Shown here in pieces: positions 17,930 to 36,200 of a DNA stretch of 64,000 bases (within the stretch, counting starts at the first letter, position 1; the number at the start of each line of letters is the position of its first letter). The DNA is from Planctomicrobium piriforme (GTDB taxonomy: Bacteria; Planctomycetota; Planctomycetia; Planctomycetales; Planctomycetaceae). Position numbers and translations under genes: made by a program. The stretch covers positions 1 to 64,000 of the forward strand of contig CAMATH010000004.1 in the NCBI GenBank assembly GCA_945860955.1, given 5' to 3'. Under the pieces are notes generated by a model. The model did not search any database. It saw only the letters and a list, made by a program, of their open reading frames with translations, and was not told where the DNA came from.

Positions 17930-18287
17930 AGGTCCAGCCGGGTATCGAAAACGAAGTCCAGGAGCGTACGACCATGCTCGTTCGACGTTCCGTCGGGGCA
18001 TCGCCAGGAGCGCCTGGCGACCCGCAAGGCTGCCCATACTAGCGGCAGGTTCGCCCGAATTCCACCACGGGGCGGTTCGATTGCGGGTGAGTCGCCCCGT
18101 TCCGTAAACTAGAGCTCGCGCGATTGGCATTCAGACCAGATTCATCGAACCGCTCCCGTCCGGAAGTGAAGTCCTTCATTCCGCTTCCCGACGGGCGCGG
18201 CTCGGTTGTGCTTCATTCTCGTTTGGCTGTAATTTCGCGTTCAGTCGCCTGACCGCCCGCTTCACGACACTTCGCAGGAGTCGACGC
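17930..18287. other. divergent intergenic region with palindromic repeat
   Basis: About 360 bases between the MFS gene (minus) and a secreted-protein gene (plus). It contains the imperfect palindrome at 18147-18203, described separately. No gene is evident. Confidence 0.5.
18147..18203. repeat. palindromic repeat, copy 1
   Basis: Imperfect hairpin with arms 18147-18168 and 18181-18203 around a 12-base loop. The right arm (CCGCTTCCCGACGGGCGCGG and onward) matches the right arm of the perfect palindrome at 30327-30382 with a single substitution, so both belong to one family. Confidence 0.7.
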
Positions 18288-27152: not shown

Positions 27153-27641
27153 ATGTCTGAACTCGCTCCGGAATGGCCCGCCGAAGGTTCAAAGGCCCCC
27201 GATTTCAATCTGGTCGCCGACGATGGCAGCAAGGTCAAACTCTCGGCTCTCAAGGGGCAGCCCGTGGTGGTCTATTTCTATCCCAAAGATGACACCCCCG
27301 GCTGCACCAAAGAGGCGTGCGCATTCCGCGACCAGAAGAAAGCCCTCGAGAAACTGGGGGCGGTGGTCCTGGGAGTCAGCCCCGACGACTCCGCCAGTCA
27401 CGTCAAATTCCGCGACAAATTCGAACTCAATTTCCGACTGTTGTCGGATCCCGATCACAAGATCGCCGAAAAATACGGGGCATGGCGCGAGAAAAACATG
27501 TACGGCAAGAAATCGATGGGGATTCAGCGATCGACGTTTCTGATCGACACCGAAGGAAAGATCGCCAAAGTGTGGAAGAAGGTCAGCGTCGACGGCCACG
27601 ACCAGCAGGTCCTGGAGGCGCTGGCGGAATTGACCAAATAG
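27153..27641 (+). CDS. bcp: thiol peroxidase, Bcp/PrxQ-type peroxiredoxin
   Basis: A 162-residue thioredoxin-dependent peroxidase reducing H2O2 and organic hydroperoxides in the cytoplasm. The family signature [11 protein letters not shown] shows the peroxidatic Cys51 and the resolving Cys56 five residues on, as in atypical two-Cys BCP enzymes. Length and the F-Y-P-K-D strand are typical. It is divergent from the ECF sigma gene (295-base gap holding both promoters) and convergent with the Cys-rich peptide operon. It could act on oxidative stress connected with the adjacent metal/thiol pathway, but that link is only positional. Confidence 0.95.
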
Positions 27642-27762: not shown

Positions 27763-27792
27763 GGTTTGACAGAATGGGCAATCTGTCAAACC
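27763..27792. terminator. bidirectional hairpin between bcp and the RiPP operon
   Basis: A perfect 11-base stem, GGTTTGACAGA and TCTGTCAAACC, with an 8-base loop, 121 bases past the bcp stop and overlapping the last codons of the DUF2063 gene on the other strand. No T-run follows on either strand, so a role as terminator is likely but not certain. Confidence 0.5.
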
Positions 27793-28760
27793 ACGAGATC
27801 GGGCTGCGAGGGGTTCTTAGCAGCTTCGTACTCATAACCCAGGAAAAAGCCCGCCGCCGTCCAGTCGGCAAACCACCGCTCGATCTGATTCGCGAATTTC
27901 TCAATCGGTTCGTCCCCCATCTCCGCCGCCACCGCCAATGCGTCGCCCACTGCGACGCCCGCCTGCATGGTCGCGAGCAGTGTGTACTGGGAGCGAGTGA
28001 GAGACCGCCGTTCCGTCCGGTAACTTCGTCGACTCACCGCGACGTAAGATTGATCCGGCCGAGGAATCGCTGGTCGCTCGTCGCGCAAAATCGCCGCGAA
28101 GTACTCGTCGACCGGAAAACGCGTCTCCAACAGTCGCACGCAGGGTGCCACAATCAAACGCGCCGTTGCGAAGTCGTCGGCGGAGAGCTTCGCGAGGTCG
28201 TGGGCCGAAAAGGGCGGTAGATTCTCGTTTCCCGGCCCGTCAAACACCTGGTTCACCGTCTGCTCGAGTCGCGCGAGATCGATAAAAAAGTCGGCCCAAT
28301 TTCCGATCGGGTTCTCGTCGCTCTCCGGGTTCGACTCTGACATGCGGTCGGACTCGGCGGGGCGCGTCGCTTCCAGGAACTCGACAAAACGATCCCCCAG
28401 TCGCGCCAGCGTGTAACTCTCAGACGGGTAGACCCGGAGATACTCCATTGCGAATTGATCGAACAGTTCCGTTCCGAATGCCCGACAGAGAACCGAGTAT
28501 TCCTCCCGTAACACTTCGATCAGTCGGGCGACGTAGGCACGCTGATAAATCTCCAGCCGCTCTTCGCTCGACAGTGCATGCGACGGGGCGACATGGTCGG
28601 CGACACTGTCCGAGATCCGTTCCGAGTCATCCCCGTCCGAAACCGACGATCCAGTGATCGCTCCATAGAGCCAGCGCTGCAATTGTTGCAGGCCGAAGTT
28701 GGAATTCGCCCCGCTGACGGAGTCTCTGCGAGTCTCGGGAATGGGCTCGCCGGAGTTCAC
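27786..28760 (-). CDS. DUF2063 (HvfC/BufC-like) RiPP partner protein
   Basis: A 324-residue cytoplasmic protein. The N-terminal ~120 residues match the DUF2063 putative DNA-binding fold ([12 protein letters not shown], then [14 protein letters not shown]). In characterised MNIO systems this partner is a RiPP-recognition subunit that binds the precursor leader rather than DNA. The second half resembles the C-terminal region seen in HvfC/BufC proteins. The start is GTG overlapping the DUF692 stop as GTGA, so it is translationally coupled. It is the last gene of the operon. Unlike many genomic DUF2063 genes, it sits directly with both precursor and enzyme. Confidence 0.82.
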
Positions 28761-29689
28761 TTGTCACCCGCGGACACAACGAATGACAGCGGATGAGGCA
28801 GTGCCCGGTCGGTCGAGTGTGTCGTCGGCTGTCGCCGGGGTGTCGGCCGACTCTCCACGTCGCGGCGCGGCCCCGACAACAGCTCGCGTGCCTTGAGGAC
28901 TTCGGCATGCACCACGGGAAACGGCGGAATGTTGGCGTCCCATTCCAGCAATGTCGATCGTTCCCCCGTGCGCTCGGTGGCGTACCGGTACAGATCCCAG
29001 ACGGGGTCAATGACCGCGCCGTCGTGGGTGTCGATGCAGTGCGTTCCACAGTCGGTGTGCCCCGCCAGGTGGTACTGAGTCACGCGGTCGTGCGGAATTC
29101 CCGCCAGGTATTCGTACGGGTCAAAATCGTGATTCACGCTTGAAACGAAGACGTTGTTCACATCCAGCAGCAGTCCGCAGTCGGCTCCTTCGACCACTCG
29201 CGTCACGAATTCCCATTCCGAGAGCGTCGACGAGGTGAACGTCACATAGCTGCTGGGATTCTCCAGGATCAGGGGCCGACCGAGAAAATCCTGTACCACC
29301 TTCACCCGTTCGATCACGTGGGAAACCACCGTGTCGTTCATCGGCAACGGAAGGAGGTCGTGCGTATTCCGCCCCGCGACACCAGTCCAGCACAAATGGT
29401 CCGAGATCCAAGCGGCTCCGATCTCATGCGCCAGTCGCTTGAGTTTTCCCAGATACTCAAAGTCGAGCGGGTCGGTGCTGCCGATGGACAGCGAGACGCC
29501 GTGCATGACAATTGGATACCGCTCGGCGATCTGCCGCAGCACATGCCGGGGGCGTCCCTGCGAGTCGATGTAGTTTTCGGAAATGATCTCAAACCAGTCG
29601 ACGGGGGGCGATTCGCGCAGGATGTGGGCGTAGTGCGTGGCACGCAGGCCGACACCAAACCCCAACGAATCGCGAGGAAGCTCGGGCAC
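28757..29689 (-). CDS. DUF692 MNIO enzyme (HvfB/BufB-like)
   Basis: A 310-residue member of the multinuclear non-haem iron oxidative (MNIO, DUF692) enzymes, TIM-barrel proteins that modify cysteines in ribosomal peptides (MbnB, TglH, BufB families). Candidate metal ligands lie in family blocks: [44 protein letters not shown], and L-L-E-W-D-A-N-I-P. It starts with GTG overlapping the last base of the precursor's TAG, and its own stop overlaps the DUF2063 start. Its presumed substrate is the neighbouring Cys-rich peptide, with Fe2+ and O2 as cosubstrates. Confidence 0.93.
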
Positions 29690-30168
29690 TAGTCTTCCTT
29701 TTTCTTTTTCGCCGGCGCTTCACCGAATTCTTTCTTCGCCTGCTTCATTTCCTTTTCGAAAAACGCCCGCGCGTCCTTCCAGGCGGTCGCCATCAGCGGG
29801 ACATGGCATTTTCCCTGCCCTTTGCAACTGTTCTGGGCGGCTGTTGTGCCGCACCCACCCTGCCCTTTGCACGCGTTGTCGCCGCCACAGGAATGATGCG
29901 TCGCGGGTGTCGCGCAATCTCCCTGACCGGCGCATTCGTTGGCTTCGCCCGCGCCTTTTCCCTTGCATGTGTTCAATCCCCGGCACACGTGCATGTCGCT
30001 GGCGAAGATATCGACGGGAGACTCGCTCGCCGCCTCGCCCCCCTTTTTCGCGAACGGGGGAGCGACCGCCGGCGGATCTCCGCAACCGACCAGGGCACCG
30101 CTCATCACGCCCCCCAGGGCGGCGACCGACAACCGATGAAACGCGCGACGGTTCAACTCAGACGACAT
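29689..30168 (-). CDS. Cys-rich exported RiPP precursor candidate
   Basis: A 159-residue peptide with a twin-arginine leader (N-R-R-A-F-H-R-L, hydrophobic region to L-V-G-C-G), which gives a lipobox with Cys29. Nine further cysteines at residues 62, 68, 79, 85, 94, 100, 106, 115 and 121 form five C-x5-C units; three are close copies of C-[KA]-G-Q-G-x-C. The C-terminal ~35 residues form an amphipathic, Lys-rich helix. I know no named family for it; it is not DUF2282-like. Preceded by a good AGGAG about eight bases from the ATG. It heads a three-gene operon with the MNIO enzyme and its partner, so it is probably their substrate and possibly a metal-binding peptide. Confidence 0.85.
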
Positions 30169-30186
30169 GTGGCGACTCCTGCGACC

Positions 30187-30326: not shown

Positions 30327-30382
30327 GAGCCGCGCCCGTCAGGAAGCGGGAGTTTGATTCCGCTTCCTGACGGGCGCGGCTC
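30327..30382. repeat. palindromic repeat, copy 2 (perfect)
   Basis: Perfect 23-base arms at 30327-30349 and 30360-30382 around a 10-base loop; the arm begins GAGCCGCGCCCGTCAGGAAG. Immediately left of it, 30301-30326 (GCGGTCCGCGTTGAGACATT) is a second module that recurs in inverted orientation beside copy 3 near 36172-36200. Confidence 0.85.
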
Positions 30383-30415
30383 GGCGTAACCCACACACTT
30401 TCAGTGCTGCGGATT

Positions 30416-31093
30416 CTAGTACAACCGATTGGTATACGATTCCTCAATATGCACTCTCAGGGTCTCGGCAGTCTGTCCGTCAATCTGGGTCTGATCGGCG
30501 AGGATCTGGGCGAAATCGGGGAGCGCCGAAGGACACGACGACGTTAAACCCTCCCACAGTTTCGAACGGATCAGCGCTTTGCCACATTGCAGAAAGCACT
30601 CTTCGATTTCCACGCCGATCGCGACTTGTGGTGTCTTGCCCTGCACCGTCAGCGGAACAAGAAATTCTTCGTCACGCATTACACAGGCCCGCCCGTTCAC
30701 CCGTAGCGTCTCGGCTGTTCCAGGTCGCATAAACAGCAGCCCGACCCGCCCAGTTTCAATGATATTCCGCAGACTGTCGGCCCGCCGATTTCCCGCCCGC
30801 TCGGGAATCACCAGGGTCTTGGAATCGATGACCGTGGCGATCCCCGGGGCGTCGCCACGCGGTGAGACGTCGAGCCTGCCGTCGCGTCCCACGGTTCCCA
30901 CCAGGACGAATGGACTCTCAGCGAGAAACGTCCGCATGTGCTGATCGAGTTCCATCCGCTCCTTTTTGATCGCCAGTTCGCTGGGTGTACCGATGAGGGC
31001 CGCGAGGTCAGCCGCGCTGTCGAGTGTGCGGCGGAAGGAGGAAAGCGCCATGGCGGGGTGCGATGCGTAGGGGATGAGACGGTCGAAGATCAC
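30416..31093 (-). CDS. PPOX-type flavoprotein (MSMEG_1061-like)
   Basis: A pyridoxamine 5'-phosphate oxidase-fold protein of 225 residues, binding FMN or F420 in a split-barrel. Family features visible are the L-V-G-T-V-G-R-D-G-R-L-D-V-S-P-R-G-D strand-loop and the N-R-R-A-D-S-L-R-N-I helix, typical of the MSMEG_1061 subfamily. The start is a GTG codon; an ATG 14 codons later (MALSSFRR) is equally plausible. The substrate is unknown; these proteins are often annotated as general-stress or heme-related flavoproteins. It stands alone, with a palindromic repeat beyond its 3' end. Confidence 0.8.
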   Translation of the reverse strand: MIFDRLIPYASHPAMALSSFRRTLDSAADLAALIGTPSELAIKKERMELDQHMRTFLAESPFVLVGTVGRDGRLDVSPRGDAPGIATVIDSKTLVIPERAGNRRADSLRNIIETGRVGLLFMRPGTAETLRVNGRACVMRDEEFLVPLTVQGKTPQVAIGVEIEECFLQCGKALIRSKLWEGLTSSCPSALPDFAQILADQTQIDGQTAETLRVHIEESYTNRLY

Positions 31094-36138: not shown

Positions 36139-36200
36139 GGAGCGGCGCCCGTGAGGAAGCGGGAGTTTGAACTCCATCAAAATGACTCAACGCGGACCGC
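36139..36200. repeat. palindromic repeat, copy 3 (degenerate)
   Basis: 36139-36170 matches the left arm and loop of the copy at 30327 (GGAGCGGCGCCCGTGAGGAA), but the right arm is missing and replaced by the inverted flanking module (CTCCATCAAAATGACTCAAC). It appears truncated or rearranged. Confidence 0.65.

Follow-up and report, generated by a model that had tools for sequence, protein, structure and literature searches.

If a small cysteine-rich peptide is encoded directly ahead of a DUF692 (MNIO) enzyme and a DUF2063 protein, does it found a new class of RiPP precursor or vary a known one, and by which route does its product leave the cytoplasm? The question is raised by three genes of Planctomicrobium piriforme (Table 1), which lie in a window of 64,000 nucleotides, the whole stretch of DNA that was analysed (assembly GCA_945860955.1, contig CAMATH010000004.1, positions 1 to 64,000). 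A preliminary description of this DNA had placed three overlapping genes at 27786-30168, joined by TAGTG and GTGA junctions: one for a Cys-rich precursor, one for a DUF692/MNIO enzyme and one for a DUF2063 protein. These coordinates proved exact and the gene assignments and both junctions were confirmed; the strand, which had been left unstated, is minus for all three. The order is A-B-C (precursor, MNIO, DUF2063), as in bufABC. The three genes are a real functional unit, and the observation is far beyond chance, because 42 of 99 related genomes encode precursor homologues (E<=0.001) in which the leader, the cysteines and the tail are shared; the majority are strong matches. Among the carriers of the operon is a cultured planctomycete, strain Pan216 (CP036279). 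On our best reading, the precursor is a Tat-type, nine-Cys variant of bufferin 2 that is both real and well conserved.

Table 1. Features of the precursor locus and its flanks (window coordinates).
Feature	Position	Strand	Details
Precursor gene (bufA2-like)	29689..30168	-	159 aa; 9 core Cys + lipobox Cys; ORF
Leader, residues 1-29	30082..30168	-	NRRAF twin-arginine motif (RR 30145-30150) and LVGC lipobox (30082-30093)
Nine-Cys core, residues 62-121	29806..29985	-	C-x5-C units reading as triplets 2+2+3+2
Conserved C-terminal tail, residues 124-152	29713..29799	-	PL..W..AR..FE..M...GK..G.AP; predicted helix 127-143
MNIO/DUF692 enzyme gene (BufB-type maturase)	28757..29689	-	310 aa; GTG start
DUF2063 + RRE-type partner gene (BufC/PME-type 1)	27786..28760	-	324 aa; GTG start
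Shine-Dalgarno-like AGGAG	30176..30180	-	7 bases 5' of precursor ATG; direct sequence reading
Flanking gene upstream, same strand as operon	30416-31093	-	MSMEG_1061-type PPOX flavoprotein
Flanking gene downstream, converging	27153-27641	+	Bcp/PrxQ-type peroxiredoxin

The view that this is an MNIO/DUF2063 RiPP operon is supported by both of the downstream genes. The MNIO scores 369 bits against PF05114 (cut-off 25) and 362 bits against the NCBIfam BufB model NF050167 (curated cut-off 310), its active-site His, Asp and Glu columns are invariant in 90 relatives, and it is homologous to the solved 3bww, to TglH (8hci) and to MbnB; it is also the single PF05114 gene of the host genome (98.9% complete). 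The DUF2063 protein scores 66 bits against PF09836 (cut-off 27.2), and its structural model (pLDDT 85.7) matches TglI (8hi7) and NGO1945 (3dee), two proteins of solved structure that are partners of MNIO enzymes or resemble such partners. It has both the DUF2063 signature and the RRE-type fold that characterise a PME-type 1 partner.

The nine core cysteines (62, 68, 79, 85, 94, 100, 106, 115 and 121), the additional lipobox cysteine at position 29, and the five C-x5-C units (CRGLNTC, CAGQGDC, CGGDNAC, CKGQGGC and CKGQGKC) had been described correctly. All nine columns are kept in 46-47 of 47 aligned sequences, and nine core cysteines are present in the window precursor as well as in 81 of 91 non-redundant relatives of the tail-bearing type. 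The C-terminal tail is likewise conserved, with P124 invariant and W130, R134, E138, M141, A151 and P152 each kept in at least 90%, and its predicted helix is the best-predicted part of the precursor (pLDDT about 80); the core was left unpredicted (mean pLDDT 49.9), and the precursor model was therefore omitted from the fold search. As had also been stated, the precursor shows neither of two familiar patterns: the window protein has no Pfam match, and so no DUF2282 domain, and its sequence holds no EGKCG repeats. Comparison with these two patterns, however, missed a third known family, BufA2/Buf_6/12Cys/'Cys-Lys'.

Profile comparisons identify the precursor as a homologue of these BufA2 (Buf2, 6/12-Cys, 'Cys-Lys') bufferins, and the proposal of a distinct precursor class is not supported. 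The precursor family matches a set of planctomycete 12-Cys BufA2 proteins at E 8e-51 (100%) in profile-profile comparison, the set including two bridging proteins described below, and matches six proteobacterial 6-Cys BufA2 sequences at E 1.8e-10. The search against BufA families that had been suggested for the precursor did return the NCBIfam BufA2 model NF050166 (28.8 bits, E 1e-6), a model also matched by 42 of 46 relatives at E<=0.01, but at a score below its curated cut-off of 60 bits. The homology of the C-x-G-x-N-x-C-K-G core and the bufABC gene order that mark BufA2/Buf_6/12Cys are both present, and the rule of 6 or 12 conserved core cysteines is broken by the nine found here. Because the score lies under the cut-off and the cysteine count departs from this rule, we class the protein as a BufA2-related variant and not as a member, and both points count against a bufferin-2-like reading.

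The nearest planctomycete relatives suggest how such a variant could have arisen. Planctomycete genomes also encode 12-Cys BufA2 proteins built of four C-x5-C-x5-C triplets, and alignment of the precursor to their core requires two gaps, which take out exactly the three missing cysteines; the C-terminal helix is absent from the 12-Cys proteins. The two bridging proteins have 11 core cysteines, an RR leader and the tail, and one of them (L202) exceeds the BufA2 cut-off (65 bits vs 60). Apparently, then, the family is a divergent nine-Cys subfamily that arose from 12-Cys BufA2 through two small deletions, which cost it three cysteines, and that gained a C-terminal helix. The 12-Cys proteins of Planctomycetes and Phycisphaerae (L203, L205, L208, L214, L216-L218 and L227) align with the window precursor throughout the core and many carry RR leaders, but they have three more cysteines and no tail, and their MNIOs fall mostly in a separate clade. 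This natural series of 12, 11 and 9 cysteines is useful for mapping recognition by the enzyme pair.

Among characterised systems, bufferin 2 (the BufA2/Buf_6/12Cys/Cys-Lys captophorins, e.g., Caulobacter vibrioides Buf2) shares with the window its C-x-G-x-N-x-C-K-G units, the A-B-C order, a BufB-type MNIO, a DUF2063 partner, an exported product (here predicted) and the occurrence of some lipoproteins; it differs in having 6 or 12 cysteines, a plain Sec leader where the window has RRxF, no added helix, an adjoining DoxX gene, another residue at the MNIO selectivity position and a precursor above the BufA2 cut-off. Oxazolin/HvfA and fontiphorin (EGKCG captophorins) also combine an MNIO with DUF2063, a signal peptide that serves as leader (shown for HvfA) and a copper-binding product, but have EGKCG repeats, other MNIO selectivity residues and a Sec leader. 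The lipidated DAG-RiPPs, among them NedA and DybA (PMC12636315), resemble the window precursor in being lipobox-bearing MNIO precursors and differ in their core motifs; a Tat motif is unmentioned in that paper.

Several further observations concern the precursors themselves. Pfam PF24646 (DUF7640), a domain whose function is unknown, is matched by nine of the 46 relatives (best E 1.5e-7), which may reflect only a shared Cys-Gly repeat pattern. One locus (L076, 9294-10672) carries a tandem pair of diverged precursors 5' of a single MNIO, and more than one precursor gene is also present in five genomes (G015, G025, G028, G035 and G042). Neither the nine-Cys precursor nor a 12-Cys one from planctomycetes had a match in a plasmid collection.

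Another view is that the cysteine-rich protein is an unmodified, metallothionein-like lipoprotein and that the MNIO pair serves another substrate. About a third of precursor genes lie away from any MNIO, which speaks for this alternative and against the bufferin-2-like reading. Yet co-occurrence is perfect even when the genes are unlinked: among 80 genomes searched, a BufB-type MNIO is encoded in 39 of the 39 with a strong precursor match vs 0 of the 41 without (Fisher p 1e-23, uncorrected for shared ancestry, with 35 genera on the positive side), and the few MNIOs of the 41 precursor-less genomes score <300 bits. Three of the 39 enzymes come from partial or damaged copies, two cut by a contig end (G022 and G044) and one with an in-frame stop (G034). 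The preliminary description had staked its reading on the Cys-rich gene being linked to DUF692 elsewhere; the precursor lies directly 5' of the MNIO in most loci, and the partners persist where linkage has been lost. In precursor-carrying genomes where the MNIO is separated, no other Cys-rich precursor lies beside it, and across 127 loci MNIO/DUF2063 is the one neighbour family that is widely shared (142 of 142 downstream and on the same strand). We consider this alternative very improbable, and a metallothionein-like protein with no relation to the MNIO was rejected on the basis of co-occurrence. Across the loci there are no conserved copper, DoxX or regulator neighbours, the other shared neighbours coming from small groups of loci; the lack of a copper or DoxX neighbour is a further point against a bufferin-2-like function. 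Of the widely shared neighbours, none was recognised as belonging to either family that flanks the operon in the window, the PPOX flavoprotein or the peroxiredoxin.

Two genomes illustrate the dispersal: in G054, precursor, MNIO and DUF2063 gene lie on three contigs (L037, L111 and contig C61), and in G037 the operon parts lie at L040 and L113, with all three parts retained in both cases. Such loss of linkage in certain lineages, with retention of all parts, is likewise useful for mapping recognition by the enzyme pair.

What the enzyme pair does to the core would follow from its family. All characterised pairs of an MNIO and a PME-type 1 (DUF2063) partner convert Cys to 5-thiooxazole, and their products bind copper (PMC12668002); from family membership we infer both the thiooxazole chemistry and the copper binding in this branch. 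A rival view holds that the MNIO does something else, or modifies only some cysteines and leaves the rest as metal-binding thiols or disulfides. The MNIOs of Cys-Lys captophorins have Asp after the catalytic Asp, at the position of FonB Phe250 (PMC12668002), and the window enzyme reads EWD-A-N, with Ala where Asp or Phe would be expected, an exception that also weighs against the bufferin-2-like reading. In addition, only 3 of the 9 core cysteines stand in a Cys-Lys context, and Buf1 is modified at its central cysteines only. Against this rival are the uniform chemistry of the characterised pairs and the score of the window MNIO above the BufB cut-off, and we judge a different or partial chemistry unlikely.

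The selectivity residue is Ala or Ser in nearly all MNIOs of the nine-Cys branch. As a marker of nine-Cys precursors it was rejected, since it tracks lineage and not cysteine count, Ala also accompanying some 12-Cys precursors, and we dropped it as an argument for co-evolution. In the MNIO tree, the enzymes of the nine-Cys, tail-bearing branch form part of one clade of 75 rows (100/95), separate from the majority of enzymes that accompany 12-Cys precursors, a split that is imperfect because a locus whose precursor has no RR (L211) falls inside. Two enzyme loci are unusual. At L046 (3622-5595, minus strand), one open frame of 657 aa matches both MNIO and DUF2063 and is either naturally fused or the result of a missed stop codon. 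At L234 (100-3391; Pseudoalteromonas piscicida, NZ_CP074588.1), the MNIO shares 57% identity with that of the window and keeps the EWDANIP motif; it lies directly 3' of a gene for a 775-aa protein with 16 Cys, there being no small precursor at that locus; transfer and a large-protein substrate are possible.

The leader, with the twin arginine and lipobox already described, is conserved across the family. All 46 aligned relatives have R7, R8 and F10, and 90 of the 91 non-redundant precursors of the tail-bearing type show R-R-x-[F/L]; the one that does not is an ORF lacking its leader. The RR pair is never replaced by KR, RK or KK in the 46-sequence alignment; the nearby basic residue 12 varies (R in 19 and K in 17 of a 47-sequence alignment). 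These leaders show what is expected of a Tat substrate, an invariant RR and, before the h-region, a hydrophobic residue at +2; Tat-signal models match some relatives (PF10399, Rieske TAT signal, 13 of 46; TIGR01409, 5 of 46), and the host genome encodes TatC. The Tat-signal models do not match the window protein itself, and the hydropathy of its h-region does not distinguish its leader from Sec leaders; hydropathy was consequently dropped as a discriminator, and both results stand against the Tat component of our reading. The RR motif occurs in none of the proteobacterial BufA2 leaders examined, and in 20 of 27 planctomycete precursors without the tail. The proposal of export through Tat is well supported by the leader sequences, and the real novelty, on this comparison, is a twin-arginine leader across a planctomycete branch where known bufferins have a Sec signal.

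The main alternative is that the same bufferin-like pathway ends in Sec export, and that RRxF is kept for recognition of the leader by the DUF2063/RRE partner. Signal peptides double as RiPP leaders in bufferins and HvfA, according to PMC13419390, which cites Junger et al. 2026, and those of Buf1 and HvfA are of the Sec type. Leader positions outside the motif, A17 and G20, are invariant as well, and planctomycete precursors show a recurrent A-A-x-x-G-x-x-A-G pattern whether or not they carry RR. However, MNIOs of the wider family serve precursors that lack the pair (L209 and L211), so that some such MNIOs can do without RR, and RR followed by F fits the Tat consensus, with some members matching Tat-signal models. 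A role in recognition is compatible with Tat export and does not exclude it; recognition combined with Sec export seems to us a rather poor bet.

Tat is specialised for folded cargo, and because it normally exports folded proteins, a Tat leader would solve the puzzle of premature export, i.e., how modification comes to precede export. The main survey of MNIO enzymes reports Sec export only and argues that some mechanism must block export before modification is complete, how this is achieved being an open problem (PMC12452194). We lean towards the view that Tat, and not Sec, exports the products of an entire bufferin-like RiPP branch of Planctomycetota and Verrucomicrobiota, whose twin-arginine signal would double as RiPP leader and as a gate through which only the finished, perhaps folded or metal-loaded, product passes. 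A search confined to open-access papers, where the export route described is always Sec, gave none that links Tat to MNIO precursors, an absence that counts as weak evidence. A branch with an invariant twin-arginine leader offers a direct comparison with Sec-type precursors on the matter of premature export.

The lipobox is a less constant feature. The window LVGC conforms to [LVI][ASTVI][GAS]C, C29 is kept in 37 of 47 aligned sequences, and a lipobox is present in 62 of the 91 non-redundant relatives; because it is present in only these, it is inessential to the family. Lipidated MNIO RiPPs, bufferins among them, have already been reported (PMC12636315, PMC12452194), and about 16% of bufferin 2-type precursors are lipoproteins (PMC12452194).

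Homology, the gene unit, co-occurrence, motif conservation and the fold of the partner are established here. Our preferred explanation, which as a whole (cytoplasmic modification, Tat export, lipidation at Cys29 and metal buffering) we regard as probable, would begin with synthesis of the precursor in the cytoplasm, where, by analogy with the family, the DUF2063 protein would bind the leader through its RRE portion. The MNIO would then oxidise several core cysteines, most likely to 5-thiooxazoles. Since the leader carries the invariant RRxF motif, the modified protein would be exported via Tat and, in this species, would be lipidated at Cys29 and anchored in the membrane facing the periplasm, the Tat route and the lipidation being read from sequence only. 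The anchored product may bind and buffer copper, as the family suggests, or another soft metal, and the conserved C-terminal helix may serve in docking or folding.

Upstream of the operon, a promoter scan at the locus gave nothing exceeding chance. The intergenic region 5' of the precursor gene holds a 23-bp perfect palindrome (GAGCCGCGCCCGTCAGGAAGCGG arms; within 30327-30383) and has very strong predicted folding (z -7.65). Because near-copies of one arm recur elsewhere in the window (18181-18197 and 36146-36162; 4 matches vs 0.03 expected), the palindrome is a dispersed REP-like repeat.
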